In this document: positions 5,315 through 59,956 of the stretch, in pieces
Position numbering within the stretch: the first letter of the stretch is position 1
How the letters are laid out: the number at the start of each line of letters is the position of its first letter
Assembly: GCF_000715075.1 (NCBI RefSeq)
Contig: NC_134085.1
Span: 134,120,060-134,184,059 of the forward strand
Length of the DNA: 64,000 nucleotides
Direction: 5' to 3'
DNA from: Nicotiana tabacum
Lineage: Eukaryota > Streptophyta > Magnoliopsida > Solanales > Solanaceae
Program-made: the position numbers and the translations under genes
Notes under the pieces: model-generated
What the model was told of the DNA's origin: nothing
Database searches by the model: none
What the model saw: the letters and a program-made list of their open reading frames with translations, nothing else

Positions 5315-5367
5315 CATTTCCTCGGGGAGTCTCAAATCAGACGATATATAACCGGGCCAAGGACTAG
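5315..5367 (-). pseudogene. CULLIN1-like split exon, 3' half
   Basis: Minus strand reads SPWPGYISSDLRLPEEM, continuing the reading from 55291 on the far side of element D. Together the halves are 160 bp, against 162 bp expected for the CUL1 exon; copy 1 at 3495 shows that two bases (AA) are missing at the insertion point. The splice donor is gone: compared with copy 1, 27 bp starting at the GT are deleted. Confidence 0.72.
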
Positions 5368-5586
5368 TGGCATTTGTAGGCATGCAAATTTTATTGAATA
5401 TAAATTCAATAAATTTTTTTGGACCATTTTAAATATATTAGTCCAAATAAATATTATGGGCTAATATAATTGAATTAATATTTAAGTCCAATAAATATTA
5501 ACTGTGCTAACCCACTTAATCGGGCTACAAATGATAAGCCCATTTCATTAGGCCAAGATATCATCTTCAAAGAGGCCCAGTTTGGT

Positions 5587-5650
5587 GCCACACGTGAAAT
5601 GACGTGGCACGTCAAGTCAAACGGAAGAGTCAATAGGATCATGCCACGTG
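5587..5650 (+). promoter_or_regulatory. Cluster of ACGT-core (bZIP/G-box) motifs in the D LTR
   Basis: Within about 65 bp lie CACACGTG, TGACGTGGCACGT and CCACGTGTC. These are ACGT-core motifs typical of ABRE/G-box/bZIP sites, 160-220 bp upstream of the TATA box. The 3' LTR keeps most of them and has an extra CCACGTGTGG where the 5' LTR reads CCAGGTGTGG. Confidence 0.45.
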
Positions 5651-5808
5651 TCAAAATGACAAGGCATGCCAAGTCACATTAAAAGGCCAATGAAACAGCG
5701 CCAGGTGTGGAAGTGACATGTTCTGGCCAATCAAATGCGGCCATGTCACACTTCAATTTGATTGATCGGAAAGAGTTTGTTCTTATCACAACTCTTCCCT
5801 TCCACAAC

Positions 5809-5816
5809 TATAAATA
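5809..5816 (+). promoter_or_regulatory. TATA box of the D 5' LTR
   Basis: CTATAAATAGGGG, a near-ideal plant TATA box, conserved in the 3' LTR at 54931. Confidence 0.65.
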
Positions 5817-6186
5817 GGGGTCCTCATAACTCAGAAAAGACACTAGAAGTTATAACAAGAAGCAAGAGAGAGCTCATGGATAAAACACCGCAAATTTCTC
5901 TATAAGTTTCAAGCTTCAAGCAATCAAAATTCATGCTCAAAAACGAAGAACAAATCAAGGTCAAGTTCAAGCAATCAAGCTCGAGCTCAAGAACAAGATC
6001 ATCGTTCGGGGCAACAAACAGAGATTCAAGATCAAGCGCAAAGGCCCTTGAATTTATTTACTACTGAAAAGAAGAATCAGAGGATTAATAGAGATTGTAT
6101 ACTCATATTATTTGAAATCAAATACTACGATTGTTACGATATTTTCGGTCTTGATTTTATTTTCTCGACGCAATTTATTGTCTACA

Positions 6187-7619: not shown

Positions 7620-9132
7620 TCATCCGAAGTATGAAGCTGAGGAGTCCATGCATATTGCAATGCTCCTTAACGCATGAGCCTAAACTGAAAGTTATAACGC
7701 TCCTTAACGCACGAGCCTAAACTGCAAGTTATAACGCTCCTTAACGCACGAGCTTAAATTGCAAGTTATAATGCTCCTCGATGCATGAGCCTAAACTGCA
7801 TGTTGCAATGATTCTTGGTACATGAGTATATATTGTATGTCATGATACAAACCAATTTTGAACTAAATCTTTAAGGTGTAAAGCTCTTCAAATTCGAGGA
7901 AAGACTCAAGTCGAAAGCTCTTAAAAGTCAAGAAAAGACTTCAAGTCGCAAAGCTTTTCAAATTAAAGCCAAACTTTAAGATGTAAAGCTCTTAAAATTC
8001 GAGCAAAGTCTTCAAGTTGCAAAGCTCTTCAAATTCGAGCAAAGACTTAAGTTGAAATCTCTTCAAAGTCGAGCAAAGACTTCAAGTCACAAAGCTTTTC
8101 AAATTAGAGCCAAACTTTAAGACGTAAAGCTCTTAAAATTCGAGCAAAGTCTTCAAGTTGCAAATCTCATCAAATTCGAGCAAAGAATGAAGTGGAAAGA
8201 TCTTCAAAATAAAGCAAAGACGTGAAGTCACATAGCTTTTCAAAATTAGAGCCAAAGTTTAAGATGTAAGGCTTTTAAAATTTGAGCAAAGTTTTCAAGT
8301 TGTAAAGATCTTCAAATTTGAGCAAACTATTCAAGTTGCAAAACTCTTTAACTGTGAGCTAAATCTTCAAGTAATGAAGCTCTTGAAATTTGATGGAACT
8401 TCAAATTGTAAGCTAAATCTTCAAGTTATAACTCTCCTTAACGCACGAGCCTGAACTGCAAGTTATAACGCTTCTTAACGCACGAGCTTAAACTGCAAGT
8501 TATAATGCTCCTCGATGCACGAGCCTAAACTGCATGTTGCAATGCTTCTTGGTACATGAGTATATATTGTATGCCACGATACTCACCAATTTTGAACTAA
8601 ATCTTTAAGGTGTAAAGCTCTTCGAATTCGAGCAAAGACTCAAGTCAAAAGCTCTTCAATGTCGAGCAAAGACTTCAAGTCGCAAAACTTTTCAAAGTAG
8701 AGCCAAACTTTAAGATGTAAAGCTCTTAAAATTCAAGCAAAGTCTTCAAGTTGCAAAGCTCTTCAAATTCGAGCAAAGACTTAAGTCGAAAGCTCTTAAA
8801 AGTCGAGCAAATACTTCAAGTCGTAAAGCTTTTCAAATTAGAGCCAAACTTTAAGATGTAATGCTCTTAAAATTCGAGCAAAGTCTTCAAGTTGCAAATC
8901 TCTTCAAATTAGAGCAAAGACTCAAGTCGAAAGCTCTTCAAAATAAAGCAAAGACTTCAAATCACAAAGCTTTTCAAAATTAGAGCCAAACTTTAAGACG
9001 TAAGGCTTTTAAAATTTGAGCAAAGTTTTCAAGTTGTAAAGATCTTCAAATTTGAGCAAACTGTTCAAGCTGCAAAGCTCTTTAACTGTGAGCTAAATCT
9101 TCAAGTAATGAAGCTCTTGAAATTCGAGTGGA
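7620..9132 (+). repeat. Two-level tandem repeats inside element D (first part)
   Basis: Short units of about 37 bp (GCTCCTTAACGCACGAGCCT...) are followed by many units of about 36 bp built on AAGCTCTTCAAATTCGAGCA and its variants. The block repeats as a higher-order unit of about 735 bp: the landmark CTTGGTACATGAGTATATAT occurs near 7814 and 8549, and in the third unit (GAGTAGATAT variant) near 12807 after removal of element E. No coding frame survives. Confidence 0.85.
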
Positions 9133-9137
9133 ACCTC

Positions 9138-11880: not shown

Positions 11881-12657
11881 TGTGTACAGTGAAAACCGGG
11901 GAACCGATTTCCCCCTTACATAATGCTTCGGAGAGTGACCCTGGAAACATGGGATCTTGGGCTCGGTCGCTTCCCTCAAAACCTGTCGATGCCCTGCCAA
12001 GAATAAACATCGGCTGAGACCCCGACAACCGCAGGAATTCCTCAAGGAATGCACCTGGGGTCGATCAAATCTATCCAACCGGCTCGACGCAATCCCTCTT
12101 ACGATGTAAAACTAACGGGCTATCACATCTCATTGTTTTTTGTCATGTTAAGTATTTTTGTAATAAGTTTGGGCGCCCTCTTTCTATAAAAAGGAGGTCA
12201 CCAATACCTTGTAAGGCATACCTACAACTATTTTCTAGAAGTGCAATCATATATTCTGTCTCTCTCTCTCTCTCTCTCTATTATCTTCTAAGTTGTTCAT
12301 TCTCACTGGCCCGAGGCCGCCCTAGCATTTATCACTTTCCTACTTGTTCTTCACCATATCACCTAATACTGGCAATATAGAGCCTTGCTAATCATACCTC
12401 TAACTGTTATTCCATCCTCGACCATCCCCGATAGTCAGAGATCGATATCAATGCCGACCCCGAGGTCCCATCGACCATCTCCGAGCTCGAGCAACATACC
12501 CCTTTGGTTCGATTACTATGTCACCTTAACTCGCATTTTAACTTTATACTTCACGCACTTAGCATTAACTACTTTAACAACTAGCTCGGGAATAGACCAC
12601 GTATTTTTAGACTCCCATTTACAAATTTAATTGTTGTTACCATTTTCACGGTAAACA
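11881..12657 (+). repeat. 3' LTR of element E
   Basis: TGTGTACAG ... GGTAAACA, 777 bp, complete, with TATAAAAA at 12185, a (CT)n tract near 12260 and a terminus shared with the LTR at 2570. Confidence 0.8.
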
Positions 12658-12662
12658 ACTTC

Positions 12663-13480
12663 AAATTGTAAGCTAAATCTTCAAGTTATAATGCTCCTTG
12701 ATGCACGAGCCTAAATTGCAAGTTATAACTCTCCTTAACGCATGAGCTTAAACTGCAAGTTATAATGCTCCTCAATGCACGAGCCTAAACTGCATCTTGC
12801 AATGCTTCTTGGTACATGAGTAGATATTGTATGTCACGATACTCACCAATTTTGAACTAAATCTTTAAGTTGTAAAGCTCTTCGAATTCGAGCAAAGACT
12901 TAAGTCAAAAGCTCTTCAAAGTCGAGCAAAGACTTCAAGTCGCAAAGCTTTTCAAATTAGAGCCAAACTTTAAGATGCAAAGCTCTTAAAATTCAATCAA
13001 AGTCTTCAAGTTACAAAGCTCCTCAATTCGAGCAAAGACTTAAGTCGAAATCTCTTCAAAGTCGAGCAAAGAGTTCAAGTCACAAAGCTTTTCAAATTAA
13101 AGCCAAACTTTAAGATGTAAAGCTTTTAAAATTCGAGCAAAGTCTTCAAGTTGCAAATCTCTTCAAATTCGAGCAAAGATTGAAGTGGAAAGCTCTTCAA
13201 AATAAAGAAAAGACTTGAATTCACAAAGCTTTTCAGAATTAGAGCCAAACTTTAAGATGTAAGGCTTTTATAATTTGAGCAAGTTTTCAAGTTGTAAAGC
13301 TCTTCAAATTTGAGCAAACTGTTCAAGCTGCAAATCTCTTTAACTGTGAGCTAACTCTTCAAGTAATGAAGCTCTTGAAATTCGAGTGGAACTTCAAATT
13401 GTAAGCTAAATCTTCAAGTTGCAATGCTCCTTGACGTATGAGCCTAAACTGCATGTTGCTACACTCCTGGCCCGCATAAG
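12663..13480 (+). repeat. Two-level tandem repeats inside element D (second part)
   Basis: Continuation of the 7620-9132 array after element E: a third higher-order unit and the start of a fourth (near 13385), with the same ~36-37 bp sub-units. Confidence 0.82.
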
Positions 13481-17199: not shown

Positions 17200-17580
17200 A
17201 CCCCACATTCGCGGACAAGATGACCTTTTAAACCTTCTGCTCAGGCCTGAAAATCCTTCTTCGCGAACGCGGTCAAAGCCTCGCATTCGCGAAGCACAGC
17301 ATAACTTTGACCAATTTTCCTCTTATGCGATCGTGACCAAACCCTCGCGAACGCGATGCTTTACACAGACGGATCTTCACGAATGCATTCCATCCATCGC
17401 GAATGCGATGAGTTACTTCCACTGAAGCTCAGCCTCTCTTTTCCTTTTATGCAAACACGACTACACACCTGCGAACGCAATGCACCTACACCCAGCACTT
17501 TGCGAATGCGGAGACCTTATCGCGAACGTAAAGGCTTAATTTACACCTTCCTCGAATGACCCTTCGCGAACGCGAAGGTC
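17200..17580. repeat. Short CpG-rich palindromic words in the F LTR
   Basis: About a dozen copies of CGCGAACGCG/TTCGCGAA and variants at 15-40 bp spacing in otherwise AT-rich DNA. The LTR fragment at 22871 keeps the last ones. Confidence 0.7.
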
Positions 17581-18271
17581 TCATTTCTACAGCACTGACC
17601 TGCAATTTTCTGCAGGTTCTAACTTCAGGAATTGGCCCGATAGACCACCCGAGGCCTCCGGCACCTCAACCAAAGGCACTAACACATCCCACAATCTTAT
17701 TCAAACTTGTTCCAATCTTCAAAACACCTCAAACAACATCAAATCAACTAAAACACATCGGATTCAAGCCTAAGTTTTTAAAAATCTTCCGAATTCCGCT
17801 TCTGATAAAAAATCTGACCAAACCACGTCCAAATGACCTAAAATTTTGCTCACACATCCCAAATGACACAACGAAACTACTGCAACTCTCGGAATTCCAT
17901 TCCAACCCCTAGATCAAAATCTCACCTACCAACCGGAAATCGCCAAAAATCCACTTTCACCAATTCAAGCCTAAATTTACTCTGGACTTTCAAAACGCAT
18001 TCCGATCGCGCTCCTAAGTCCCAAATCACCTCCCAAAGCTAACCGAATCATCGGAACTTACATCCGAGCTCTCTAATACATAAGTCAACATCCTGTTGAC
18101 TTTTCCAACTTAACCTTCCTTAAAAGAGACTAAGTATCTCAAACCTTACCTAGTCCTTTCTGAACCCTAACCAATCAACCCGATCACATATAGAACCATT
18201 ATACAAAGCAATTAGAAGCAGAATGGGGAAACAGAGCGGTAACTCATGAGACAACTGGCCGGGTCGTCACA

Positions 18272-18282
18272 TCCTCCACAAC
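18272..18282 (-). other. Polypurine tract of element F
   Basis: GTGGAGGA on the minus strand, abutting the 3' LTR; it would prime plus-strand synthesis. Confidence 0.6.
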
Positions 18283-18319
18283 TTAAACAAGTGTTCATCC
18301 TCAAACGAGTCAAGAAACA

Positions 18320-18505
18320 TACCTGAAGCCTCAAATAGGTGAGAATATCTGCTCCGCATCTCCCGCTCGGTCTCCCAAGTAGCCTCCTCTACGGGCCGAC
18401 CTCTCTACTGCACTTTCACTGAAGCTATATCCTTTGACTTCAACTTCGAACCTGACGACCCAAAATAGCTACTGGGTCCACATCATAAGTTAGATCATCA
18501 TCCAA
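18320..18505 (-). pseudogene. Chromodomain of element F integrase
   Basis: Directly after the integrase C-terminus the minus strand reads LDDDLTYDVDPVAILGRQVR; after a frameshift it reads RGRPVEEATWETEREMRSRY. The W-E-T pattern is the hallmark of the chromodomain that tethers chromoviral integration complexes to histone marks. Two nonsense codons (one at the DFSTV junction, one in VKVQ*RG) and the frameshift inactivate it. Confidence 0.75.
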
Positions 18506-19640
18506 CTAAACCGTGCTGAAATCCAAAACATGAGACGGATCCCCAATATACTTCCAGAGTATAGAAACATGAAATACCGGATGCACACTCGACAAGCTGG
18601 GTGCCAAAGCAAGCTCATAAGCCACCTCCCTAATACTCTGAAGCACCTCAAAAGGCCCAATGAACCAAGGACTCAATTTCCCTTTCTTCTCGAATCTCAT
18701 AACATCCTTCATAGGTGAAACCTTCAATAGAACCTTCTCCCCAACCATGTAGGACACATCCCGAACCTTCATATCAGCATAGCTCTTCTGCCTCGACTGC
18801 GCTGTACGAAGCCTCTCCTGAATCACCTTCACCTTTTCAAAAGCATCCTGCACCTAGTCTATCCCCAATAGCCTAGCCTCACCGGGCTCAAACCAACCAA
18901 TTGGAGATCTACACCACCTCCCATACAAAGCCTCATACGGAGCAATCTGAATACTCGATTGGTAGTTGTTGTTATAAGCAACCTCTGCAAGCAGTAGAAA
19001 CTGATCCCATGACCCTCCAAAATCAATGACACAAGTACGTAGCATATCTTCCAATATCTCAATAGTGCGCTCGGACTACCCGTCCATTTGAGGGTGAAAA
19101 GCTGTACTCAACTCAGCCTGAGTACCCAACTCTCGCTGCACAGACCTCCAAAACTGCGAAGCAAACTGAGTGCCCCTATCTGAAATGATGGAAACTGGGA
19201 CACCATGCAAATGAACAATATCCTGGATATAGATCGCTGTCAACCGCTCTGAAGAATATGTAGTACACATAGGAATGAAGTGCGCGGACTTGGTCAGCCG
19301 ATCCACAATCACCCAAATAGCATCGAACATTCTCAAAGTTCGTGGAAGTCCAACAACAAAGTCCATAGTGATCCTATCCCACTTCCACTCGGGAATATCC
19401 ATCTGCTAAAGCAAGCCACCCGATCTCTGATGCTCATATTTCACCTGCTGACAATTGAGACACCGAGCTACAAATCCCACAATGTCTTTCTTCATTCTTC
19501 TCCACCAATAATGCTACCTCAAATACTGATACATCTTCACGACACTCGGATGAATGGAATACCGCGAGCTATGGGCCTCCTCCAGGATCAACTCTCCAAA
19601 CCCATCTACATTAGGCGCGCAAATCCGGCCCTACATCCTC
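18506..19640 (-). pseudogene. Integrase of element F
   Basis: An H-H-C-C zinc-binding head is visible (HPSVVKMYQ ... CLNCQQ), then the DDE core with MDFVVGLPR, IISDRGTQF and, 3' of a stop, SERTIEILEDMLR, so all three acidic residues remain. The C-terminal GPY/F module (SPWFIGPFEVLQ) follows. Stops fall after HPQMDG, after ARLLGID and inside the zinc head. In the intact family this is one polyprotein with RT and gag. Confidence 0.82.
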
Positions 19641-20290
19641 AACACCCCATCATCACCAATGGTCACATATCTGGCATCATCATGCTGAACTCTATCCTTA
19701 AGGACAAGCAAATGCGGATCATCATACTGGCACTCTCTGATGCGATCATATAAGGAAGACCGAGAAACCATGCAAGCCAACATCCGACTAGGCTCCGAAA
19801 CATCTAACCTCACGAATTGATTGGCCAAGGCCTGAACATCAACTGCAAGAGGTCTCGCCCCAACTGCAATATATGCCAAATTCCCCATACTCACTGCCTT
19901 TCGGCTCAAAGCATCGGCCACCACATTGGCCTTCCCCGGATGGTACAATATAGTGATATCATAATCCTTAAGAAACTCCAACCATCTCTGCTGCCTCAAA
20001 TTAAGATCCTTTTTCTTGAACAAGTGCTGAAGACTGCGATGATCAGTGAACACCTCACAAGACACGCCATACAAGTAATGCCTCCAAATCTTCAATGTGT
20101 GAACTATGGCAGCCAACTCCAAATCATGAATAGGGTAGTTCTTCTCATGGGGCTTCAACTGACGAGAAGCATAAGCAATAACTCTACCCTCCTGCATCAA
20201 CACACAACCAATCCTAACTCTCAAAGCATCACAATACGCGGTATATGAACCTGAAGCTGATGGCAAAACCAACACTGGAGTTGTGGTCAA
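19641..20290 (-). pseudogene. RNase H region of element F
   Basis: One open stretch of 219 codons contains [18 protein letters not shown] (first catalytic Asp), [30 protein letters not shown] and [17 protein letters not shown], the RNase H pattern of Ty3/Gypsy elements. The usual DAS after the first Asp reads DAL. It ends in a TAG just before the integrase zinc head. Confidence 0.82.
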
Positions 20291-21387
20291 AGCTGTCTTG
20301 AGCTTCTAAAAGCTCTCCTCACACTCATCGGACCATAAAAATGAAGCACCCTTCTGAGTCAACTTGGTCAAGGGTGATGCGATAGATGAAAATCCCCGAA
20401 CAAACTGGCGATAATAGCCTGCTAAACCAAAAAAGCCGCGAATCTCTGTAGCTGAGGATGGTCTGGGTCAACTCTGAACCACCTTTATCTTTTTCGGATC
20501 AACCTGAATACCCTCGCTGGACACCACGTGCCCCAAGAAAGCTACTGAACTGAGCCAAAACTCACACTTGGAGAATTTTGCATAAAGCTTCTCCTCCCTC
20601 AATCTCTGCAACAAAACTCTCAAATGCTCTGCGTGCTCCTACTGACTATGCGAATACACTAGAATATTATCAATGATGACTATGACAAATGAATCAAGAT
20701 AAGGCCAGAACATGTTGTTCATCAAATGCATGAACACTGCTAGGGCATTGGTCAGCCCAAAAGACATTACCAAGAACTCATAATGACCATATCGGGTCTT
20801 GAAAGCTGTCTTAAGAATATCCGAGTAGCTGATCTTCAACTGGTGATAACCCGAACAGAGATCAATCTTGGAGAATACTCTCGCTCCCTGAAGCTGGCCA
20901 AACAAATCATCAATGCGAGGCAAGGGATACTTGTTCTTAATTGTTACTTTGTTCAATTGCCTATAATAAATGCACATCCTCATAGTGTCATCCTTCTTCT
21001 TTACAAGTAGAACGGCGCACCCCAAGGCGACACTCTAGGCCGAATGAACCCCTTATCAAGGAGTTCCTGAAGCTGCTCCTTTAACTCTTTCAACTCCGTT
21101 GGTGCCATACGATACGTCGAAATAGAAATAGGTTGAGTGCCTGACACCAGATCAATACCAAAATCAATATCCCTGTCTGGTGGCATGCCTGACAGGTCTG
21201 CAGGAAACACATCTGGAAAATCCCTCACAACTAGGACAAAATTAATACTGGGAGTCTCTACACCGACATCCCTCACAAAGGCTAGATACGAAAGACATCC
21301 CTTCCCAACTATACGATGGGCCTTCAAGAATGAGATCACTCTACTAGGAACATAGTCAGTCATACCTCGCCACTCAATCCGTGGCAC
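20291..21387 (-). pseudogene. Reverse transcriptase of element F
   Basis: The minus strand shows the linker with FPDVFPADLSGMPPDRDIDF, the N-terminal YRMAP motif, [11 protein letters not shown] and [33 protein letters not shown] and the thumb [17 protein letters not shown]. The catalytic box reads IIDNILVYS where the family has F-I-D-D-I-L-V-Y-S, so the second active-site Asp is Asn and the enzyme would be dead even without its stops (after LVYSHSQ, VVQS, ESF and near AGFYL). Confidence 0.82.
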
Positions 21388-21890
21388 ACCCGGTATAGCT
21401 AATGTGACTGTCTTGGCATGATAGTCCAGAATAGCACGACACGGAGATAACTAGTCCATGCCCAAAATGATATCGAAATCCACCATACACAGTAATAAAA
21501 GATCCACTCAGGTCTCCAGACCCCCAATAGTCACCACACACCACCAGTACACATGGTCTACCACAACAGTATCGCCCACTGGAGTAGATACATGAACAGA
21601 TGAAATAAGAAACTCACGGGGCGTATCTAGATAACTAGCAAAGTATGACGGCACATAAGAAAAGGTGGAACTGGGATCAAATAATACAAAAGCATCTCTG
21701 TGGCAGACTGAAACAATACCTGAAATCACGGCATTTGAAGCAGCAACATTTGGTCTACTCAAAAAATGCATAAAAATGGGCCTGACCACCGCCTGATCAA
21801 CCTCTCCCTCTAGGGCGACCCCTGATTGACTGACCTCTACCCCTAGTTGGTTGGGCGGGTGGTGAAGTAACTGGAGAAGAAGTCGAGGGC
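21388..21890 (-). pseudogene. Aspartic protease region of element F
   Basis: The plant Gypsy protease (RVP_2 type) signature is FVLFDPSSTFSYVPSYFA, where the family has D-[ST or P]-G-S; here Gly is Ser. VDFDIILGMD, the second conserved patch, follows beyond a stop. It would cleave the gag-pol polyprotein in an intact element. Confidence 0.7.
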
Positions 21891-22870
21891 TGACCCCTCT
21901 GCTGAGACTAACCATTATGAAGACTAGGACACTGCCTCCTCATATGCCCAAACTTTCCACGCTTATAATTCCCCGGTGGTGGAGATAGGGACTGAAGGGA
22001 ACCCCTAGCACCGGGATAACCAGTAGAAGGACCTGGCATGGAAGAACCCTAAACTGATGGAGCACGGGACAAACTCTGGGCTGGAAGGGCACTAAGTGAT
22101 GAGTGGCCCTGATGAGAACTATGAGAACCATGACCCGATGATGCCCCATGATAACCTGGGCGAGCTGAATGAGCCTGTCTGAATGGAAGGCCTATACCCT
22201 ACTGGAACAGACCCCTCGAAGGAGCACCACTAAAGCTACCAGATCCCCGAGGCTTCTTGGTATCCCTCTCCTCTCGCTCCTGGCGGCGAATCGACTCAAT
22301 CTTACTGGCGATGTCAGCAACCTCCTCGAAAGTAGCACCTATCACCCTCTCCCTAGTCATGAGAATTCGAAGCTGATATGTGAGACTATCAACAAACCTC
22401 ATAATCCTCTCTCGATCTATGGGAACCAACCAAACCGCATGATGGGCTAACTCAAAGAACCCGCATCTCATACTGCGTCACAGTCATTTCTCCTTGATGC
22501 AACTGCTCAAACTGCCTACGTAGCTCCTCTCAGTGAGACTGTGGCACATACTTCTCCAGAAAGAAAACAGAGAACTGCTGCCAACTACGCCTCTCATACG
22601 CCTCCCACCAAGTGAATGCAGAACCGGAAAACTGAAAGGTGATAAAAGCTACATCACTGGTCTCTAGGATCCCCGCTGTACGAAGCATCCTATTGCACTT
22701 ATCCAAGAACCCCTGGGCATCCTCGCCCTCTGTACCACGGAAGATCGGAGGCTGGAGTCTACCAAACCTCTCAAGTCGACGCTACTCGTCGTCCGGCATA
22801 ACTGGTACAACAAACTCCTAAGCTGGTGCAATCGGCTGGGCTAGAGGTGCCCCCGGTGTCTGCCGCCCCA
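21891..22870 (-). pseudogene. gag of element F, N-terminally deleted
   Basis: The minus strand includes RFVDSLTYQLRILMTRERVI and ATFEEVADIASKIESIRRQE, typical of the Del-lineage capsid, a G/S/P/R-rich linker and a decayed zinc knuckle (YKRGKFGHMRRQCPS, first Cys lost). Upstream, capsid codons (QFAVFFLEKYVP-like region, 22480-22800) are readable in pieces. At 22870 the gag passes straight into LTR sequence, so the true start codon, leader and PBS are deleted. Confidence 0.7.
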
Positions 22871-42163: not shown

Positions 42164-42462
42164 TGGCATCATTAAAAAGGCACAAATAGATAAACAGCAT
42201 AAAGAAGTCTAGCCGAGCTAACTCATGCCACATATGTACACATAATATGATAGAGAAGAGAAACATAGAAATTAAGCATTGAGATAATAAAAGAGGATAG
42301 ATTTGATATTGATGAAAATTTTAAACAAAGGCAACATGGGAATGTTAAGACGAGAGCAACACTGTTTCATCCCAACCACATCATAAAAAAGAAAACAGAA
42401 CATCTACCAAACAAGAAAAACTTAAAAAAAACATTTCTAGAAACTGGTCACTGAAGGGGTAC

Positions 42463-44525: not shown

Positions 44526-45129
44526 TGAAAAAAAATGGTGTGAAAATGCTTTGGGAAGTTTTAATGGAGGACTTATAGTTAGGGAGAACAGAAAAGGGTT
44601 TTTATGAGGAGAGGATAATTATGAAGAGAGAGGAATAGGCACCGGTTATGAAACGACGGTTGGGCATGGAGAAGTGCAACATTTCAGAGGGAGATAAAAT
44701 GATTTGAAGTGAAGAGACATGACAACATGATCTGAAAAGTTGAATGACATGGAAGTTGTGTTTTGTACCTTTTTAAGACGTGTGTTAAAGGATGCACAGA
44801 ACTACTAACCTTGGTACAAGAATCAGGTTCTTGACCTATTATCGGTTTTCAAATAAGTAAATCGGATCATTCAATGTTTATAAGGAGGTCGACATCAGGT
44901 ATTGTCCTTCTTCTGCTTTATGTGGATGACATTGCTTTCTCTAGTAATGACTTAGCTTTGAAAATATTAATCCTCGTTTATCATCCATGCACTACATCTA
45001 CAGCTTCTATACTCATCATGTGTGTTTACCTGCAACGGTATTGAAGTGAGTTAGACAGGGCCAGAAAACACTTTTAGCCAATTTTTCTTGAAGATGATTT
45101 TCATAGCCAAATAATGGAAAATCAGGTTC

Positions 45130-48100
45130 TCAATTGGGCTTTAAAAGCCCCAACTTCACTTTGTTTCTTTCAAAATGTTCCCTACTTAATGCCTTGGTAA
45201 AGATGTCTGCAATTTTATCTTCTGTGCTACAGAACTTCATGCATATCAATCCTTTTTCCACATTGTCCCTCATAAAGTGATGCCTCACATCAATATGCTT
45301 GGTCCTTTTGTGTTGAACTGGATTATTTGCCATGTTGAGTGTACTTGTGCTATCACATAGAAGGGGCACACTCTCAGTGAGTACCCCAAAGTCCTCCAGT
45401 TGCTGCTTGATACACAAAAGTTTTGCACAGTAGGATGTTGCGGCTATATATTCTGCCTCAGCTGTTGAAAGAGCCACTGGGTTTTGCTTCCTTGTGCCCC
45501 AAGAGATGAGACATGAACCTAGAAAATGAGCCATTCCAGAAGTGCTCTTCCTATCTACAAGATAACCTGCATAGTCTGCATCAGCATATCCAATGAGGTT
45601 AAAACTGTCACTTGTGGGATAATAAATTACTAGGTCTTGTGTTCCTTTAAGATATCTCAGAATTCTTTTGGCTTCCTTCAAATGAGATTCCTTGGAATTT
45701 GATTGAAACCTTGCACATAACCTCACACTGAAGACAATATCAGGTCTACTAGCAGTAAGATAGAGAAGAGACCCAATAATGCCTCTATACATTGTTTGAT
45801 TCACACGAGACCCTACTTCATCCATGTCCAGTCGAGTGGTCGTAGCAATGAGAGTGTCTATAACTTTTGATGCTTCCATGTCAAACCTCTTCAAGAGCTT
45901 CCTGATGTATTTTTGCTAACACATAAATGTACCCTTTGGGGACTGTTTTACTTGAAGACCCAAGAAGAAGTTCAGTTCCCCTATCATACTCATTTCAAAC
46001 TGACTTCCCATGAGTTCTGCAAATTCCTCACATAGAGAATCAGTTGTTGCCCCAAAAATGATATCATCAACATAGACTTGAATAATGAGCAGGTTCCTTC
46101 CCCGTTTCTTTAGAAATAGGGTGTTGTCAATTTTCCATCTTTAAAGCCATTTTCTAAGAGGAACTTTGACAACCTTTCATACCAAGCTCGAGGAGCCTGC
46201 TTCAGCCCGTACAATGTTTTGTCTAGTTTAAAAACATATTAATGGTGTTCATGACATTCAAACCCCGGAGGTTGCTTCACATAGACTTCTTCCTTAAGAA
46301 GTTCATTAAAAATGCACTTTTGACATCCATTTGGAACAAGGTGAATTCCATATGAGATGCAAAAGAGATTAGAATTCTAATAGCTTCCATACGACTGACC
46401 GGAGCAAACGTTTCAGCATAGTCAATCCCTTCCTCCTGATTGTAGCCTTGAATCACTAGCTTGGCCTTATTCCTTGTGGTAATTCCATGTTCATCAAGCT
46501 TGTTTCTGAATACCCACCTGGTTCCTATAATGGTTCGATCTGAGGGTCTAGGTACCAGGTGTCAAACATTGTTCCTTTCAAACTGATGTAACTCGTCTAG
46601 CATGGCTTTAATCTAGTCTGCATCTTTGAAGGCTTCCTTGATATTCTTGGGTTCTATCTGGGAGAGAAAAGCTGAGAAGGCAAGTGAATTTTTTGCTCTT
46701 GACCTAGTTTATACTCCAGAATCTAGAGGAGTAATGATGTTGTCCATTTGATGAGAGCTTTTGTGTCTCCAGTTAGACGTCTGAGGTTCATTTTGAGAGG
46801 ATGTGGGTACGTTTTGCTAGTTTTCCAGCGTTCTTCTCTCAGGTGCTAGTGGAGTTCCCTGAACTGCATCAACCACTCTTTCTTTAGCTTTAGTAATTGT
46901 AATTAAAGTACTTGGCTCCATTGGAGATGAGGCAGTATTGTCTTCATTCAGCTCTTTTACTTGACTCATCATATCTGCCTTTCTATTTGTCATGTCAATG
47001 ACTTCACCAGGGACTAGTAAGGGTTCTCCATCTTGATCTTCTTCATTACTCTTCTCACAGGATGGATACGACTCATTAAAAATAACATGAACACTTTCCT
47101 CAACACAATTAGTCCGCTTATTATATATCTTGTAAGCCTTGCTTTGAGAAAAGTAGCCCAGATTTATTTCTTCGTCACTCTTGGCATCGAATTTACCAAG
47201 CCGATCCTTTCCATTGTTGAGAACATAGCATTTGTACCCAAATATTCTTAGGTGAGTCAGCTTGGGTTTTCTTCCATTCAACAATTCATAGGGGGTTTTG
47301 TTCAGAAGAGATCTGATCATGCACCTATTCACCAAGTAGCATGTAGTATTGATAGCTTCAGCCCAAAAGTTCTTTGCAATTTCACTTGTCGATTAGCATT
47401 GTTCTTGCCATCTCTTCTAGAGTTCTGTTCTTCCTTTCTACTACTCCATTTTGCTAGGGATTTCTGGGATCTGAGAAGTTATGAGTGATGCCATTTTCAT
47501 AGAAGAACTCATCAAATTTGACATTGTCAAATTATGTCTCATGATCTGATTTAATTGCGACTTTAGACTCCATCTTCACCTGGATTTTCTTCACAAAAGC
47601 CACAAACACCTCAACAGTTTCATCTTTAGTTCTGAGAAACAGAGTGCATGTGAATCTTGAGTAGTCATCCATCATCACAAAAATGAATCTTTCCCCTACT
47701 CTACTTTACACTCTCATAGGGCCACATAGATCCATATGCAGAAGCTCTAGTGGTTTTGAGTTGCTCATATCTCTTTTAGACTTAAAGGAGGACTTCACAT
47801 GTTTTCCTCTAGCGCATGCATCACATACATTTTGCACCTTGAATTTTGACATGGGCAGACCATGTACCAGGTCCTTCTGAATTAGTTTGTTCAGAAGAGA
47901 AAACTTGCATGGCCCAGTATTCTGTGCCATAGTTCAGTATCATCATCAACAACTTTCAGACAACTCAGATCACCACTTTGTAAGGACTCAAAATCAGTAA
48001 GATTGATGTTCTTGTATCTTTTGGCCACAAGTACCTCTTCACCAGTTACCAGATTGGTGACTGTACATATTTTGGACAAGAATTCCACCTTGTTTCCTTT

Positions 48101-48415
48101 ATCACAGATTTGAGAGACACTCAAGAAACTATACTTAAGGCTGTTGACATAGTTCACATTTTCAATAGGATGGGTGAGTGATTTCCCGACTTTTCCAACT
48201 CCAAGAATGTACCCCTTTTTCCCATTGACAAAGGATACACTCCCTTCTTGTAGAGATTTTAGTGAAAGAAAGTCCATGGTATTCCCAGTCATATGCTTTG
48301 AACACCCACTATCCATGAACCATTGGTGACCGCTTCCTTTCACTGTTTCATGCACAAGGAGATTAAGAGTTAGTTTTTGAAACCCAAGCAAGTTTGGGTC
48401 CCTTGTAGTAGGCAA
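45130..48415 (-). pseudogene. pol of element C
   Basis: The open frame at 48415-47891 contains the protease site FMDSGCSKHMTGNTMDF and the pre-integrase segment (NYVNSLKYSFLSVSQICDKG). After a frameshift come LINKLIQKDLVHG and CDACARGKHVKSSFKSK. Integrase core remnants are at 47700-46820 (NKTPYELLNGRKPKLTHLR), then RT with the intact box QVYVDDIIFG near 46065, then RNase H at 45894-45130 (GYADADYAGYLVDRKSTS, ALSTAEAEYIAA) ending LGLLKPN. Stops and frameshifts separate the blocks. Confidence 0.85.
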
Positions 48416-50267
48416 GAGGATAAATAAGAGCTCTCTTAGTCCATGCAGGTAATGTGCATTTTTTGTGAGTGGAACCTGGTCCCTCTTTTGTAGTCACCTT
48501 TTCAGCAAACACTTTGTTTTTCTGAACAGATTTATCCCTAGCCTAGCAATTTTCTTTGAATTGCCAATTATTCTCACATTGGGTACTTGCTGTGAGGTTT
48601 GTAAGAAGTTTTCTCCCTTTGGAACCCTATTCCTTGCCTGTTTCCACCATTATTAATGTGCATGGCAGTGATATCTTTTGAGGACCATGTACACTTTAAG
48701 GACTTTTCAAGATCATTCTTTACTCTTTCCAGATCAGTCTGGAGGTGCTTGTTTTTGTCAATTTCAACACACATCCTAGTTCTCATAGCTATCACCTCAT
48801 TTTCAAGCCTAATGTGTTCCTCACTTGCTATCGCCTTTCCCTTTCCAGAATTTTCAGGTTTTGACTTAGTCCGTGGTCTCACTATTGTTTCCCTTAGGTC
48901 TGTAATTACTACCAAAAGGTCATTTTTTCTTTTCTGAAGTTTCAATGGTTTCCTTATGGTCAATAACTACAACCACTAAGTCGTCTCTAGTTTGTTTAGA
49001 TTTGCCTAGTTCTAAGGTCAAAGAATCCATATCCTCCACAAGACTATGATAGGCACCAATTAATACATGAGCTAAAGACATGAGTTTTTTTGGAGAATAG
49101 GATTTCAGATTTTTCTGAACATCCCTGAAATTTACCTCTTTGTTGACATTGTCTTCATCGTCATCTGATTGGGCCATCAAAGCAAAAGTTGAGTTATATT
49201 CAGTTTCCTCGCCTTCAACTGCCATCATAGAACTATCACCAGCATCAGGTTCATCTTCAGATTCACTAGACGAATCCCCCCATGCTGCAAGAGCCTATTT
49301 CACCATATTGTCAGCAGATCTTTTTCTCTTGAAGTCCTTGAAAGGAACCGGGTTCCTCTTAGTTGTTCTCTCATGGTTGTTCTTGGAGAACTCTTGCTTC
49401 AAGAGAGGGTCATGAAGTGTCTAGGCTTCCCACACTTATGAAAAAGATCACAGTTTTTGGTTTGTTAGAGCTGCCCCTTTTTAGCATTTCTCCATTTCTT
49501 TTGACCATCTTCTGAAATCTTTTGGTTAAGTAAGCCATGTCACTGTCTTCCTCACTTGAGTCATTGTTATCAGCTTTGAGTACCAGGTTCTTTTCCTTCT
49601 TTGGTTCTCTTCTTTCACTGTCTATCTTCCTCTTCATCTCATAGGTCTTTAGATTTCCAATAAGCTCTTCTGTGGTCAACTCCTGTAAGTATTTTGATTC
49701 AGTAATAGCATTCACCTTGCTTTCCCATGGGCTAGGCAGAATACTGAGGATTTTCCTCACTAGCTTATTTCTAGGAATGGTTTTGCCAAATGAGTGTAAC
49801 TCATTTATGATGGAAGTGAATCTTGTGTACATATCTTGAATAGATTCATCGTCCTTCATCCTGAAGAGTTCATACTCGGTAGTGAGCATATCGATCTTAG
49901 ACTATTTTACTTGGGTAGTTCCCTCATGAGCTGTTTGCAAAGCTTCCTCTATCTCCTTAGCAGTGTCGCAAGCGGAAATTCTATTATATTCTTAAGGTCC
50001 TGTTCCACACACCAGAATCTTCTTGGCACAAAAATTCTTCTCCACAGCTTTCCTGTCTGCGTCAGTATATTCTTTACTGGTTTTTGTTATTGAAAATGGG
50101 AGTTCTTCCAGTACCTTTATTGGAACATAAGGACCATCACATAACTCAGAATCCTCAGCCATGATAAAATCATGCATTCTTATTTTCCACCACCCATAGT
50201 ATTGTCCATTGAACCTGGGTGGTCGGTATGTAGATTGACCTTCTTCAAAATTTGGTGGAGCAGCCAT
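48363..50267 (-). pseudogene. gag of element C
   Basis: ATG at 50267 (MAAPPNFEEGQSTYRPPRF) with WWKIRMHDFIMAEDSEL, the common Solanaceae SIRE-type gag start. The UBN2-like capsid follows (YELFRMKDDESIQDMYTRFT, LGNLKTYEMKRKID-like region), then a long acidic and coiled-coil tail (49228-48574) and a Lys-rich end. The knuckle near 49430 is decayed. The gag frame closes with a TAA at 48363, while the protease frame opens upstream at 48415, one base out of register. Confidence 0.8.
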
Positions 50268-50306
50268 AAGGATTCTTCCTAGGTGTTCTCCTGATAGGAG
50301 GAACCG

Positions 50307-50319
50307 CCTCTAATAACAA
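50307..50319 (-). other. Degenerate primer-binding site of element C
   Basis: Minus strand TTGTTATTAGAGGCGGTTC aligns with the TTGGTATCAGAGCGGTTC expected next to the LTR; two substitutions and one insertion. Confidence 0.55.
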
Positions 50320-50320
50320 T

Positions 50321-51285
50321 TGTTAGTTTGTACGAGTCCACCAAACAGTAGAGTACCTGTTCCTCTACAAGATTCTGCTGAGAATGTGAATAAACTGTAA
50401 GTAAATGAGACAAGGGATTTTTACGTGGAAAAATCCCACACAAGGGGACCAAAAACCATGACCTACACCTGTAGTCTTTCAACTTCACTAACTTGTAAAA
50501 ACCTATTACAAGCCACTTTGTAATGACTCCATTGTAAAGAATTAAACTCAACTATCATGTGGTACTCTTACCACAAGTCACTTTGTGACTCTCTAGTTAC
50601 AAAGACTTTCACTAACTTGTGATGCTCTCACCACAAGCCACTTTGTCACTCTACAGTTACAAAGGCTTTTGCTTATGACTAGACCTAGTCACAACATAAA
50701 CTCAAAGAGTTTACGGATTTTACAAGAAGTTTCCTAATCAACGCTCTAGCTATGCAATTTAAGATTTACAATAAGTACAATAACAAAGTTACAAATCAAC
50801 TAAGGACAACAAAATATTGACTTTAAGAACTAGTCTGTAGTAGCGTTCAACTTTGTTCTTCAAGCTCGTGGGAATTGATTTCTCTGTTTTTGCAAAAGGT
50901 TTGAATGAGAAACTGAAACATTCAAGTGATATTTCAATATAAACTCATTGTTGGTACACCTTGATCACATCACTTGAAATGATGTGAGAACTTTAGTTGG
51001 TCAAGGAATGAGTGGGCACTGGAAATAGTGTAGTGCGGCAGAAATAGTGCAGGCAGCCACTTCATTTCCAGCTGTGTCCAATTGACTTTGTACTGATATG
51101 AGGGAACCACAAGGGTATCAGGTCCTTATTTAGTTTACTAGCTCCTGAAGCTGTGGCAGTTCACATTTAGCTGGAATCCGTTAAACTTCCAGTATAGTCC
51201 AAATGGGTCAGGTTCCTTATCAGGTTCTTAACAGTAAGTTTGTTAGATCATCAAAATCCAAGGCAAGGACATTTAAAACATATCA
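50321..51285 (-). repeat. 5' LTR of element C
   Basis: Plus strand TGTTAGTTTGTACG ... ACATATCA, 965 bp, complete. Shares the ACGTGGAAAAATCCCAC / ACCAAAAACCATGACCTAC block with the other SIRE-type LTRs. Confidence 0.85.
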
Positions 51286-53612: not shown

Positions 53613-54495
53613 AGTAATCTCTCCGATAGTCGGACCACTAGGAGTAATCTCTACAAAATTTGGGCAGGGATGAGTACCCATCCCCTCGTACCCTAAGATT
53701 GTCTTCTTCATGCATGAATTTTTTGGTTAAATAAGAACATATCCTCCTCGTTGACCTAAAAAAAGAGAAAGAAAAGGACGACGATAAATACATAAAAGAA
53801 AAAAACTACTTCCGGATTGCCACCTTGTGAAAACACAAAGCCAAGATAGCTTGTAGATGCTAAAGTTCGATGCTTAATAAAAATATGAGCACGGGGTTTA
53901 TATAGATCTCCTATGAAGCTGATTGGGAAGCGAGATTTCGATCTGGGAATAGCTGAAATCAGTTATCGAAAAGAACTGGGACTGCTAAGGTGGCAATACA
54001 ATTGTACGGGATCTACTTGGTTAACTCCAATTTTAATATTACTTGGCTCCTTTTCAGTTCAAGTAGGAATTGAACTTGTCGACGCAGATTCAAGTTCAAG
54101 TACGAATCAAAGCCCATAATGATAGCTGTTCATTTGGTTTCAAGTAGGAATCATAAATTTCACAAGATTCAAGTTATAGAATTCACGATTTCCTAGTCAT
54201 ATGGGAATATGTGGTATGATGATGTCTTCTATGTGGATTTTCATGCAAGTTTGTGAACATGAATTAGGATGTTTAATATAAGGTGCAAATGTTAAGTAAA
54301 GTTTCAAATAATGTAAAAGATCTTGACCTACATGCTTATATTTGTCTTTTCATAGATATTGTGAAATGCAAATATATCACTTTAATAAGTTTTAGGGAAT
54401 ATTCATAAAAAAATAAATACTATGCTAATACTTCAAGCCTCGCCTTTTGGAGTTGGATACGTCTAAATCCGTCGAGTCTTGAAGTAGGGGGCATT
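53613..54495 (+). other. Element D 3' internal region
   Basis: Starts with the resumed 34 bp repeat (TCTCTCCGATAGTCGGACC), then non-coding AT-rich DNA. The polypurine tract AGTAGGGGG is at 54483-54491 before the LTR. The short ORF at 53913-54119 has no recognisable domain and is not called. Confidence 0.6.
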
Positions 54496-55290
54496 TGTAG
54501 GCATGCAAATTTTATTGAATATAAATTCAATAAATTTTTTTGGACCATTTTAAATATATTAGTCCAAATAAATATTATGGGCTAATATAATTGAATTAAT
54601 ATTTAAGTCCAATAAATATTAACTGTGCTAACCCACTTAATCGGGCTACAAATGATAGGCACATTTCATTAGGCCCAAGATATCATCTTCAAAGAGGCTT
54701 AGTTTGGTGCCACACGTGAAATGATGTGGCACGCCAAGTCAAACGGAAGAGTCAATAGGATCATGCCACGTGTCAAAATGACAAGGCATGCCAAGTCATA
54801 TTAAAAGGCCAATGAAACAATGCCACGTGTGGAAGTGACATGTTCTGGCCAATCAAACGCGGCCATGTCACACTTCAATTTGATTTGTCGGAAAGAGTTT
54901 GTTCTTATCATAACTCCTCCCTTCCACAACTATAAATAGGGGTCTTCATAACTCAGAAAACACACCAGAAGTTATAACAAGAAGCAAGAGAGAGCTCGTG
55001 GATCAAACATCGCAAATTTCTCTACAAGTTTCAAGCTTCAAGCAATCAAAATTCAAGCTAAAGAATGAAGAACAAATCAAGGTCAAGTTCAAGCAATCAA
55101 GCTCGAGCTCAAGAAATAGATCATCGTTCGTGGCAACAAACATAGATTCAAGATCAAGCTCAAAGGACCTTGAATTTATTTACTACTGAAAAGATGAATC
55201 AGAGGATTCATAGAAATTGTACACTCATATTATTTGAAATCAAATACTACGATTGTTGTGATATTTTCTCGACACAATTTATTATCTACA
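54496..55290 (+). repeat. 3' LTR of element D
   Basis: TGTAGGCATGC ... TATCTACA, 795 bp, TATA box at 54931-54938. It differs from the 5' LTR by scattered substitutions and short deletions (for example near 55260). Confidence 0.82.
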
Positions 55291-55900: not shown

Positions 55901-57538
55901 TTTAACGAACCCGACTTGGTTGTTTTGAGCTCTAGCGCGTCGTTCAGTAGTTTGAGGCTATGAGCAGCTTCACTTCAGGTATTGTGATTTGTACGCATGG
56001 TCGGAATTTAATTCCGGGATTTTTGGAGTAGATTTGGAATGAAAATTCTCATTTCAAAAGCTTTAAGTTGGAAGAATTGACTAAGATTTAATGTTTGAGT
56101 AAATGACCTCGGAATCGGGATTTAAAGGTTTCAGTAGGTTCATATGATGATTTCGGACTTGGGCGTATGCCTAGATTGGGTTTTGGATGACTCGGGAGCG
56201 TTTCAGCACCTATTGTGAAAATTAGCATTTTTAGAGGAATTTCATAAATTTGGGTTGAAGTGAATTTCAATGTTATCAATATCCATTTGGGATTTTGAGT
56301 CTGATAATAGCTTCGTGTGGTGATTCTGGTATTGGGAGCATGTACGGAAGTGGATTCGGAGGTCCGTAGGTCATTTTGGAGTTGTTTGGCGAAAGTAGAA
56401 ATTTGAAGGTCTTTGAGAAGTTTGACTGGAAGTGAAATTTTTGATATCGGGGTCGGATTCCGATTTCGGAAGTTGGAGCAGGTATGTAATGTCGAATATG
56501 ACTGGTGCGCAAAATATGAGATTAATCGGATGTGATTTAATAGGTTTCGGCATCGAATGTTGAAGTTTGAAGTTCTAAAGTTCATTAAGCTTGAATTGGG
56601 TTGTGATTCGTGATTTCGATACTTTTTGATGGGATTTGAAGGCTCAACTAAGTTTGTAATGTGTTTTGGGATGTGTTGGTAAAATTAGATGAGGTCCCGG
56701 AGTCCTCGGGTGGATTCCGGGTGATTAACGGATCGAATTTGGAGTTTGAAGAAGAATTGAGGCTACTGGCATCTAGTGTAACCGCACCTAAGAGCTTTTG
56801 GCCACAGGTGCGGAGCCGCAAAAATGGCCTAAAAGTTACAAAAGCGGAGCAGGGCTGCCCAGGTGAAGGACCGCAGGTGCGGAGTCATGACCTACGTACG
56901 CAGGAGGTGATGAGAGTTGTACGTAGCTACTAGTTATGCCTATGTCCGGGTAGTTTTAGGCTCACTTGTTGATATTATTGATAATTTATGTTTATTATTT
57001 GTCTTAAGAAGAAACATGATTAAGGTTGCGTAATAATTGTGTTGAAAGGAATTTGAATTGAGGAATTTAAGATTTTAAGAATTTCCATTAAACTTGGTAT
57101 TTTCGAAGAGAATTGAGAAATATTATAATAGCTTAAGAAATCTATGTGTAACCGCGTCGCATGTATGTTTTGCGAGCGGAGTAATTTCCTTAAAAGCTAC
57201 AAGCTGAATTTCCCTTATTTTGAAAAGAACCAAGAAAGAGATAAGATTTTAAATGTTAAATTTATATTTGACCGCGTCGCAAGTATGATCCATGAGCGGC
57301 GTGAATTCTTAAATTTATATTTAACCGCACTGCGTGTATGATTCACGACCGAGGTATTTCCTTCTACTAATCTTGTGGGATCGGGCCATTCGACTCGACA
57401 GGATTTATGTACTACACTCTCATGGGAGCGGGTCATTCGCCTCGGCAGGTTAATAGATGCATCTATGGTTCGCGTCGTTCGACCTTCGGCAGTGCACAAT
57501 TTACTTTTATATTGGATCAGACCTTACGCCTCGGCATT

Positions 57539-57576
<38 letters not shown>

Positions 57577-58337
57577 CATGAAATCGTGTGTAGTATTTGG
57601 CAAGAAGCCAGTATATCTGAGGGAATTTCGTTGGTTTGAATTATGACAACTTCTTTGATGAATTCCACTATATCCATGCTTATGCTCTGGTACGAAGGGA
57701 ACTTGGTAGTTTAGAGCTTGAGTAAATTGTAAAGAGGAGAATTGCACCACGTATTTTATACATGTTTATTTTATATATTTACTCTGTTTCATATTTATTT
57801 ACTTCTTTAATGTACCTAATATTATTGGACCGCAAGTAAATGTCGTAGTCAACCCCCTCATCACTACTTCTTCGAGATTAGACTGGATACTTATTGGGTA
57901 AGCGTTGTTTTCTTACTCATAGTACACTTGCTGTGCACTTTTGTTGCATAGGCACATGTATGTCTAGTAGCTTAGTGGGCACAACAACATGGTTGACACA
58001 GAGACTTAGGTGAGCTGCATCTCTCGAGACGACTTGCAGCCATCAGAGTCTCCTTCAGAGTATTGTACTTTCTTTTCTGTCCAAATTTGTGTCTCAGACA
58101 GTTATTGTACTTCATTTTCTTTCATAGTAATTGTTCATGCACTTGTGATACCGGGTTCTGGGGTGATTACGGGATATTCAGTGTTGAAATCGAAAAACAT
58201 TATTATTTATTTTGTAAAGTTCATCTTTTACCAGTTAAATTGAAGGAAAGCTATGATTTGAGAAATACTAAAATAAGAACCAAATTAATTATTTATTGTT
58301 GACTTTCCTGATAGTGGTGTCTGACACCATTACGACC
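55901..58337 (+). repeat. Solo Del/Tekay-type LTR, ends degenerate
   Basis: Plus-oriented LTR style: CGAACCCGACTTGGTTGTTT at the start, GATATCGGGGTCGGATTCCG inside, a zone of CACAGGTGCGGAGCCGC words at 56790-56890, and ACACCATTACGACC at the end, matching the reverse complement of the F LTR start but lacking its last ~20 bp. TTAA occurs at both edges (55902-55905 and 58338-58341). It splits a CUL1 exon region; no internal genes accompany it. Confidence 0.68.
57542..57569. repeat. (AT)n microsatellite
   Basis: About 28 bp of alternating AT followed by ACACAC, inside the solo LTR. Confidence 0.9.
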
Positions 58338-59956
58338 TTAAATGATTTTTGGATTATGATATTTCTCCTACAAAACTCCGCAAAGAGGTCTTTGTCACTG
58401 ATGTATGCGAGAAGATTGACCACCTACAAAAATTCAAACCATTATTTATTGTGGTATCATTTGCAGAAAGATGAACTTTCCAGTAAGTGAAGAGTGAATT
58501 ACAGTTCACGCTACACCTTATCCAACATCTCCTCAATAACATCATCACTGAGCTTTTCAACCCAACTTATCTTAAGAACATTATCGCAATAAGAAGCAAG
58601 AAGCGCTGCACTCGAATAGCCTGATACAGTCTTGTTACACAAGACCTCAAATGCCTCCTTGAGAGCCTGTACAGGTCAAACTTTAGACATCAGAAACTTT
58701 GACAAATAATTCAATGTTAAAGAGATGAACATACCATATGCAAGAAGAAGTTATTATTAAAACATTCTGTAACATAAGCCATACACTTGTCGTGAAGCTC
58801 AATCAACTTCCTAACAAAGACCTGAGAAAAGGGATGAGTTCAAGACTAAGTATTACCCATACATAAAGTGAAATCAAAATATGGGAATATGGTTCTACCT
58901 GCTCCCCTGAGCCCGAACTTTCAGCCTGTGCAAGAACACACATATAAGCACCTCAAATGGAAACACTAATAAATTGTTATCAGGAACTAAAGTTTCTTGA
59001 AACCATAGGACAACAAGGATTCAAAGAAACTTCATATGTATCTACTTCATTTGTACAAATGCTTTCAACTCCACTTAAAATTTTTTGTTCTTTTAAATGG
59101 CGTTTCATGCAATCCCCCACCCCCCCACCCCACCACACTGTTTCTTCCCTATTAAAATTTTAAAAGGACTTTAGACTCACTTACAATTAACAGATAATCA
59201 TCATTCTTAGGTGTAAACCCATAAAAATATGAAATATGAACATGCCAATTCACCTTGTTGCTTGCCGGATCTTCAGCTTGTTGCACCAAGATCTCACCGG
59301 CAGAAGTGACATGCTGCAAAATATGTGCCTTTAGCAGATGTTTAGTCAAAATTCCAAAACCAAATGAATAATTCTTTTCTCAGTCGTTAATTGGCATAGA
59401 GTTTTTTCCCACCTGTTTAAACATATTTGCAACATGTTCCAATCCCGTCGGAATTCTGTGGAATAACCAATTCATTCGAGATAAATCTTCTACCTAAGTG
59501 TACAAAAGATAGTGTAGAAGTAAGGCAAAATAGAGCAACATCAAATAACATGTAAAATACATTGAAACCACCAGAAAACTAAGTGAAAAGAAAAATAAGA
59601 AAGAAATACCTTATCATCTCTAAGCAAAGCTCGGCATCCAGAATGCTCCTTCTCAAGTAACTGATTGGTATATAAAACAAATAATTCATTTTGTACTTTC
59701 TGTAGACTGTAGCATAAATTTAGTCCCAGCATTAAAGACAAATCCAACAAAAGGAAGATTTTTAACATGTAGAAAGTCTGAATTTTCAGCATTCTAAGTC
59801 AAGTATATATCAGGTGGATACTTTAAAGTAATGACATCAATAAGAAGTGTAAGTTTTTAACAAAATTCAAAGGCTGACCCCCTGAAGTTTTTCCTCACTA
59901 CTAAAGTGGAGATAATGAGACACTCTATCCTGCTCTTTTTTTAGGCACTCCTCCGT
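58338..59956 (-). pseudogene. CUL1-like: CULLIN1-like gene, eight consecutive exons
   Basis: Exons (minus strand): 59956-59879 TEECLKKEQDRVSHYLHFSS; 59699-59610 KVQNELF ... [17 protein letters not shown]; 59493-59413 VEDLSRMNWLFHRIPTGLEH; 59313-59254 HVTSAGEILVQQAEDPASNK; 58925-58899 AESSGSGEQ; 58821-58735 [20 protein letters not shown]; 58666-58517 [20 protein letters not shown] ...; 58423-58338 VVNLLAYISDKDLFAEF.... Each has AG/GT borders (donor GTCAGC in the first) and no stop, and the chain matches the middle of plant CUL1, the scaffold of SCF ubiquitin ligases (helical stalk into the start of the cullin homology domain). Residues such as HK>HM and YRKKLARR>CRRN differ from consensus. Truncated on both sides by retroelements; the 5' exons are absent and the 3' exons are scattered at 55900, 55397 and 5367. 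It cannot make a cullin. Confidence 0.85.

Follow-up and report, generated by a model that had tools for sequence, protein, structure and literature searches.

A broken, intron-bearing CUL1-like gene copy of Nicotiana tabacum with one exon split by nested LTR retrotransposons

Nested clusters of LTR retrotransposons are common in large plant genomes. The closest intact relatives of the gene copy described here are two tobacco CUL1-type genes, at C22:163.70 Mb (L013) and C19:63.70 Mb (L014), which are open through exons 1-18 (the first two fused, and exon 19 lying outside the DNA examined). Among CUL1-family genes, Petunia CUL1-P and Solanum ui6.1 are described as pollen genes of S-RNase-based and interspecific compatibility (PMC12403065, PMC7098457). 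The window analysed here, a stretch of 64,000 nucleotides of N. tabacum on C6, holds a cullin copy (copy A) that, like these pollen genes, belongs to the CUL1 family but is a broken gene; it differs from L013 and L014 in having parts of only 10 of the 19 exons, one of them partial and one split, and in its raised amino-acid change. We regard it, with a probability of about 0.9, as an unprocessed pseudogene that still carries introns, which arose by genomic duplication of a single CUL1 paralogue of Nicotiana and was broken by insertions and deletions.

Exons are numbered after the 19-exon CUL1 gene L010 of the same genome. As the initial annotation had it, the pieces belong to one CUL1-like gene and lie on the minus strand in the correct order. 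Exon 6 (59956-59879, 78 nt) retains its AG acceptor and GT donor, and both splice sites are likewise retained in exons 7 (59699-59610, 90 nt), 8 (59493-59413, 81 nt), 9 (59313-59254, 60 nt), 10 (58925-58899, 27 nt), 11 (58821-58735, 87 nt) and 12 (58666-58517, 150 nt). Exon 13 (58423-58368, 56 nt) keeps its acceptor, but its donor has been replaced by inserted DNA. All eight frames are open, with no stop and no frameshift; as regards the N-terminal cullin repeats, this open block is accompanied by no match to exons 1-5. Their lengths are identical to those in L013 and L014 (where an aligner output of 79 + 8 nt corresponds to 60 + 27), and the copy is 86.1% identical to these genes over 1,464 columns, a similarity not due to chance (E 0.0). 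The eight exons first placed at 59956-58338 are thus real, with open frames and splice sites, but the block ends at 58368, the remaining 30 nt are inserted DNA, and the last donor is lost. We considered whether exon 13 might run on into exon 14 as a spliced join and rejected this, because those 30 nt do not resemble exon 14 and because the other introns are present. The DNA search detected window exons that a genome-wide search with the Pfam cullin profile had not listed (none among its 79 matches, with 71 of 80 candidates scored).

Beyond exon 13, an inserted sequence of about 2.46 kb (55906-58367, edges placed by eye, no strand assigned) stands where intron 13 and approximately 64 nt at the beginning of exon 14 would be expected; one segment of this sequence (56431-56743) shows a 76% match to 63442-63752 in inverted orientation. 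The exon with a MITE inside, previously drawn at 55900-55482, does contain a MITE but starts at 55905 and represents just the 3' part of exon 14, about 57 of 121 nt (55905-55870 and 55502-55482, minus strand), with its GT donor retained. The MITE itself (55869-55506, minus strand, 364 bp) is short, has similar inverted termini and a target-site duplication (TSD), TTA, and forms a strong hairpin (fold z -7.62; none of 100 shuffles folded equally well).

Exon 15 is split between 55397-55291 (107 nt, open, acceptor retained) and 5368-5315 (54 nt), both on the minus strand, the second part being followed by an intron 15 remnant (5314-5183, minus strand) whose donor a small deletion has removed in comparison with a second copy described below. 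The split is real and nearly without loss, as the initial annotation stated, except that 161 rather than 160 of the 162 nt remain and the second half begins at 5368. The two halves do join in related genes: positions 5359 and 55291 fall eleven bases apart in both L013 (1719 and 1730) and L014 (1826 and 1837), where the exon is contiguous. A second, unsplit exon 15 (copy B, 3650-3503, minus strand) carries two frameshifting deletions, is continuous across the site of element D in copy A, and is followed by its own intron 15 remnant (3502-3340, minus strand) with the donor GT adjoining the exon end. Copy B sits 1.7 kb past the second half of the split exon. It was considered as an excision product, a reading left unsupported because copy B has frameshifts of its own and differs from copy A by 10-19%. 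Copy B offers a base-level control for the effect of an insertion on a coding exon. The initial annotation did not mention this copy, the missing ends of the gene, the lost exon 15 donor, the lack of a TSD on the outer element or the sister fragments on C6 and C4.

L013/L014 is the best-scoring gene pair for exons 6-13, for what is left of exon 14, for each half of exon 15 and for copy B, so the check for a mixture of paralogues came out in favour of one gene. In the protein tree, the window copy and L018, a fragment on C4, are sisters (100/99), and together with L013, L014 and P0110, a "cullin-1-like" protein of N. sylvestris, they form a group of five rows (99/99); in the DNA tree (1,401 columns) the window copy groups with L018 and L021 (100/100). 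By these trees, the window copy and the C4 fragments form a group that derives by duplication from a single CUL1 paralogue of Nicotiana, that of C22/C19. A protein search with the 208-aa spliced window piece returned 107 proteins, of which the top one was 80% identical; none was a closer relative. Two results bear on the assignment of C6 and C4 to parental subgenomes. Introns of the window copy lie at a distance of 0.102 from those of L018, more than the 0.029 and 0.064 in two intact homoeologous pairs, yet two further fragments, L028 on C6 and L029 on C4, have a common internal deletion junction and flanks. Copy B adjoins, at the exon 15 start, repeat R (3651-4342, plus strand), the end of a high-copy dispersed repeat that lies beside three cullin fragments (copy B, L021 and L029). 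This raises the alternative that a transposon picked up the fragments and spread them, in place of ordinary segmental or tandem duplication. The alternative was weakened by a copy-number search, in which R gave at least 41 matches (40 scored of 699 candidates), two of them at known cullin fragments; furthermore, R is oriented differently with respect to the cullin in the window than in L021/L029, and R was not found in the 3.2 kb examined of the counterpart L028. We consider capture very improbable.

The halves of exon 15 lie about 50 kb apart, separated, as proposed initially, by an LTR element with further elements nested inside. The outer element, D, occupies 5369-55290 with its nested content (plus strand) and has paired LTRs with TG...CA ends (5375-6186 and 54496-55290; K80 0.0525 between 5375-6184 and 54496-55290). 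Nested in D is E3 (23971-53612, minus strand, LTR K80 0.10, TSD AGTAA), which contains E5 (31653-51089), which in turn contains E1 (32396-41866). As in other nested clusters, there are several levels, and LTR distances decrease inwards from E3 through E5 to E1, as nesting requires. This cluster differs from the usual kind in that the LTRs of the outermost element are more similar, apparently younger, than those of E3, E5 and F within it, that D has no TSD (right flank GTAAG, left flank GCATT), and that the hexamer GGCATT at its left junction (5369-5374) is the one beside its own polypurine tract (54490-54495). The first 162 bases of the two D LTRs are identical. An LTR element does split the coding exon, but a clean insertion with a TSD was not seen. 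The missing TSD and the identical 162 bases would also suit an assembly artefact in which exon halves from different loci were misjoined across repeats. This is highly improbable, as only one of the 162 nt is missing at the join, the halves share a strand and follow the expected order, and the inner element E3 retains its TSD. We see no further locus from which a half could have come, since an own-genome search with exon 15 gave seven matches in total, those other than copy A being copy B and four CUL1 genes.

In our main reading, the lineage of the duplicate was fragmented into several pieces, now on C6 and C4. This copy lacks exons 1-5 and 16-19; DNA inserted together with a deletion took over intron 13 and the front of exon 14, exon 14 also received a MITE and exon 15 the element D, and elements that later nested in D drove the exon 15 halves apart. 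The order of the early damage is inferred. This simple story does not predict that D should look younger by its LTRs than its inner elements. A possible explanation, to which we give slightly less than even odds, is that the left junction of D was rewritten after insertion, when a break where the 5' LTR meets the gene was mended with the 3' LTR of D as template. Copying would have run through at least 162 LTR bases and six bases past the edge, on the polypurine-tract side, before rejoining the exon, replacing one T and the presumed five-base TSD. If so, it may have partly reset the LTR clock and made D look younger than the elements nested in it. The mismatch between LTR distance and nesting order is a warning against dating insertions by LTR identity alone.

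The initial annotation judged coding decay slight compared with the structural damage. We find more decay than displacement alone, because searches failed to recover nine of the 19 exons and the rate of amino-acid change is elevated. Neither the window nor the 8 kb on either side contained a match to exons 1-5 or 16-19 (exon 19 was searched only with an Arabidopsis protein), and with the N-terminal half of L018 as query, the sole match on C6 was 134179805-134180061, inside the window (21 matches, 12 of 12 candidates). Against L013/L014, dN of the window copy is 0.082-0.083, roughly 20-fold above the 0.004 that separates L013 from L014 across this stretch; dN/dS is 0.30-0.38, compared with 0.07 and 0.01 in two homoeologous intact pairs, and intron distance is 0.112-0.124. 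Two of the three C4 fragments, L018 and L021, contain in-frame stops. As in other unprocessed duplicated pseudogenes, introns are kept, disabling lesions are present and intact relatives exist. Judging from the sequence, some constraint may have acted on the eight-exon block part of the time, since it has neither stop nor frameshift and dN/dS against L018 is 0.46 (22 nonsynonymous, 11 synonymous changes) and not 1. That the block is selected as a short CUL1-like protein or a decoy for cullin partners is very unlikely: its open frames, exact exon lengths, splice sites kept to the last donor and dN/dS below 1 would fit, but exons 1-5, start codon included, have no match in the window or the flanking 8 kb, the exon 13 donor is lost, dN is raised about 20-fold and the C4 sisters carry stops.

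The C-terminal part of CUL1 binds RBX1 and accepts NEDD8. The exons for the C-terminal cullin-homology and neddylation regions (16-19) are among those without a match, and the locus should therefore yield no working cullin. The suggested relevance to pollen-pistil compatibility finds no support here, given these absent exons and an RNase T2 (PF00445) profile search of the same genome, in which none of 42 matches (64 of 64 candidates scored) lay on C6 or C4; as regards RNase T2 genes, the idea of an S-locus is likewise unsupported. For cullin biology, the locus records how Nicotiana lost a CUL1 duplicate whose nearest pair of genes has kept open frames. It is a well-preserved case of an ordinary process, useful as a transposon fossil record and otherwise ordinary. 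Lastly, region 61407-61940, which matches sequence upstream of L014, was considered as a shared gene-upstream region; it is a dispersed repeat, because the L014 counterpart recurs on C4 (L054) in the opposite orientation.

A truncated, unprocessed CUL1 pseudogene lies at this locus, within a transposon-rich cluster, and it is in this form that the initial annotation, which read one CUL1-like gene broken by transposons, was upheld. Such clusters are common in large plant genomes; among the titles listed in a small literature search, none dealt with this locus. The N. tabacum genome searched here has 3,996,098,646 bases, with the window at G000:C6:134120060-134184059, and exons are numbered after the 19-exon CUL1 gene L010. 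The eight minus-strand exons of the split gene (copy A), at 59956-58368 and 78, 90, 81, 60, 27, 87, 150 and 56 nt long, correspond to exons 6-13. They were borne out, with open frames in 8/8 and with lengths and order identical to those of L013 and L014, the closest CUL1-type genes in the genome, where the aligner gave 79+8 for the 60+27 nt pair. Splice sites had been described as kept in all eight; every AG acceptor is indeed present, but GT donors remain in only seven, that of exon 13 having been replaced by inserted DNA adjoining 58368. The MITE reported in an exon at 55900-55482 exists (364 bp, TTA at both flanks), but it is surrounded by only ~57 of the 121 nt of exon 14. Two repeat segments, 56431-56743 and 63442-63752, are inverted copies of each other at 76% identity; one of them sits in the insertion replacing part of this exon. 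Exon 15 survives as pieces of 107 and 54 nt and has lost its downstream donor. Neither the window nor the 8 kb to each side gave a match to exons 1-5 or 16-19, the only query for exon 19 being an unverified Arabidopsis protein sequence. The window exons were absent among the 79 matches of a genome search with the Pfam cullin profile, whereas the DNA search did recover them.

The halves of exon 15 end at 1719 and 1730 in L013, and at 1826 and 1837 in L014. A second, unsplit exon 15 (copy B), missing from the initial annotation, lies at 3650-3503 on the minus strand. The two halves belong together, as these adjoining end points and the unsplit copy show: as had been anticipated, they join in related sequences, abutting in L013 and L014 and unbroken in copy B. 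Copy B has the unusual residues of copy A and two small frameshifting deletions. Its identity is 90.3% with the first half over 103 columns, and 81.0% over 210 columns with the second half and intron together. It runs continuously across the insertion site of D, the LTR element that splits exon 15, with one base unaccounted for in copy A. Exon 15 has seven matches in the genome, three being the window's own places and four lying in other CUL1 genes. A high-copy repeat (3651-4342) abuts copy B.

A protein tree of 28 rows paired copy A with L018, a cullin fragment on C4 (support 100/99), nested in a five-row group with L013, L014 and the N. sylvestris cullin-1-like protein P0110 (99/99). The DNA tree agrees on this placement; the deeper forks of the protein tree are less sure, because the Arabidopsis sequence is unverified, less than one third of the columns are filled in copy A and L018, and P0099 forms a long branch. 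The other CUL1 genes (L009/L010, L011/L012 and C3/C17) are further from copy A than the L013/L014 group. L010 falls beside P0116 of N. tabacum, and L013 beside P0110. In L013 and L014 a single fused exon of 228 nt stands for the first two coding exons of L009/L010 (128+100 nt), apparently through loss of an intron.

Across introns 2-7 (the first aligned poorly and was excluded), copy A stands at 0.112-0.124 from L014/L013 and 0.102 from L018; distances between intact genes are 0.029 (L013-L014) and 0.064 (L009-L010). Copy A has been under far weaker constraint than live CUL1 genes: over 623 nt, its dN/dS is 0.30-0.38 against L014/L013 and 0.46 against L018, and 1.08 in a shorter comparison with L021, while live genes give 0.07 (L013-L014) and 0.01 (L009-L010). 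Some constraint perhaps acted for part of its history, and an open frame by itself is not strong evidence that copy A is used.

Related CUL1 fragments lie at C4:66.088 Mb (L021), C4:66.102-66.105 Mb (L018), C4:66.142 Mb (L029) and C6:134.300 Mb (L028). L028 and L029 have the same internal deletion junction, and their flanks match at 85-89%; these two are therefore counterparts, and the C6 and C4 clusters probably arose from one source. Of all these fragments, only those on C4 were found to contain N-terminal exons.

D (plus strand; LTRs 5375-6186 and 54496-55290) showed no TSD when its flanks were compared, with GTAAG on the right and GGCATT on the left. This hexamer (5369-5374, outside the 5' LTR) equals the six bases between D's own G-run and 3' LTR (54490-54495), beside the polypurine tract, and at the left-junction end the two LTRs are identical through their first 162 aligned bases (P 8e-5 for a leading run of such length, 0.0028 for such a run anywhere). 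The left junction may have been repaired by copying the 3' LTR plus six bases beyond, a single event that would account for the hexamer, the absent TSD and the identity block. A mis-processed plus-strand primer could alternatively have left the hexamer, but would not explain the identity block. Inside D lie E3 (23971-53612, TSD AGTAA) and F (17558-23613, inferred from a direct repeat without clear TSD); E3 contains E5 (31653-51089, likewise inferred, its direct repeat lacking TG/CA ends), which contains E1 (32396-41866). LTR K80 values of 0.1006 for E3, 0.0727 for E5 and 0.0542 for E1 follow an order consistent with nesting, but D (0.0525) appears younger than the enclosed E3, E5 and F (0.1266), and left-junction repair alone would leave the low divergence of its remaining LTR sequence unexplained. 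Searched singly for domains, ten reading frames gave copia gag or pol matches above the cut-off in two cases (gag in E3 and Pol_BBD in E5), RT_RNaseH in one (within F), Transposase_32 in two, at scores under its cut-off, and no match in the remaining five. On the left side of the outer cluster, long internal tandem repeats occupy 7659-9134 and 12657-13457.
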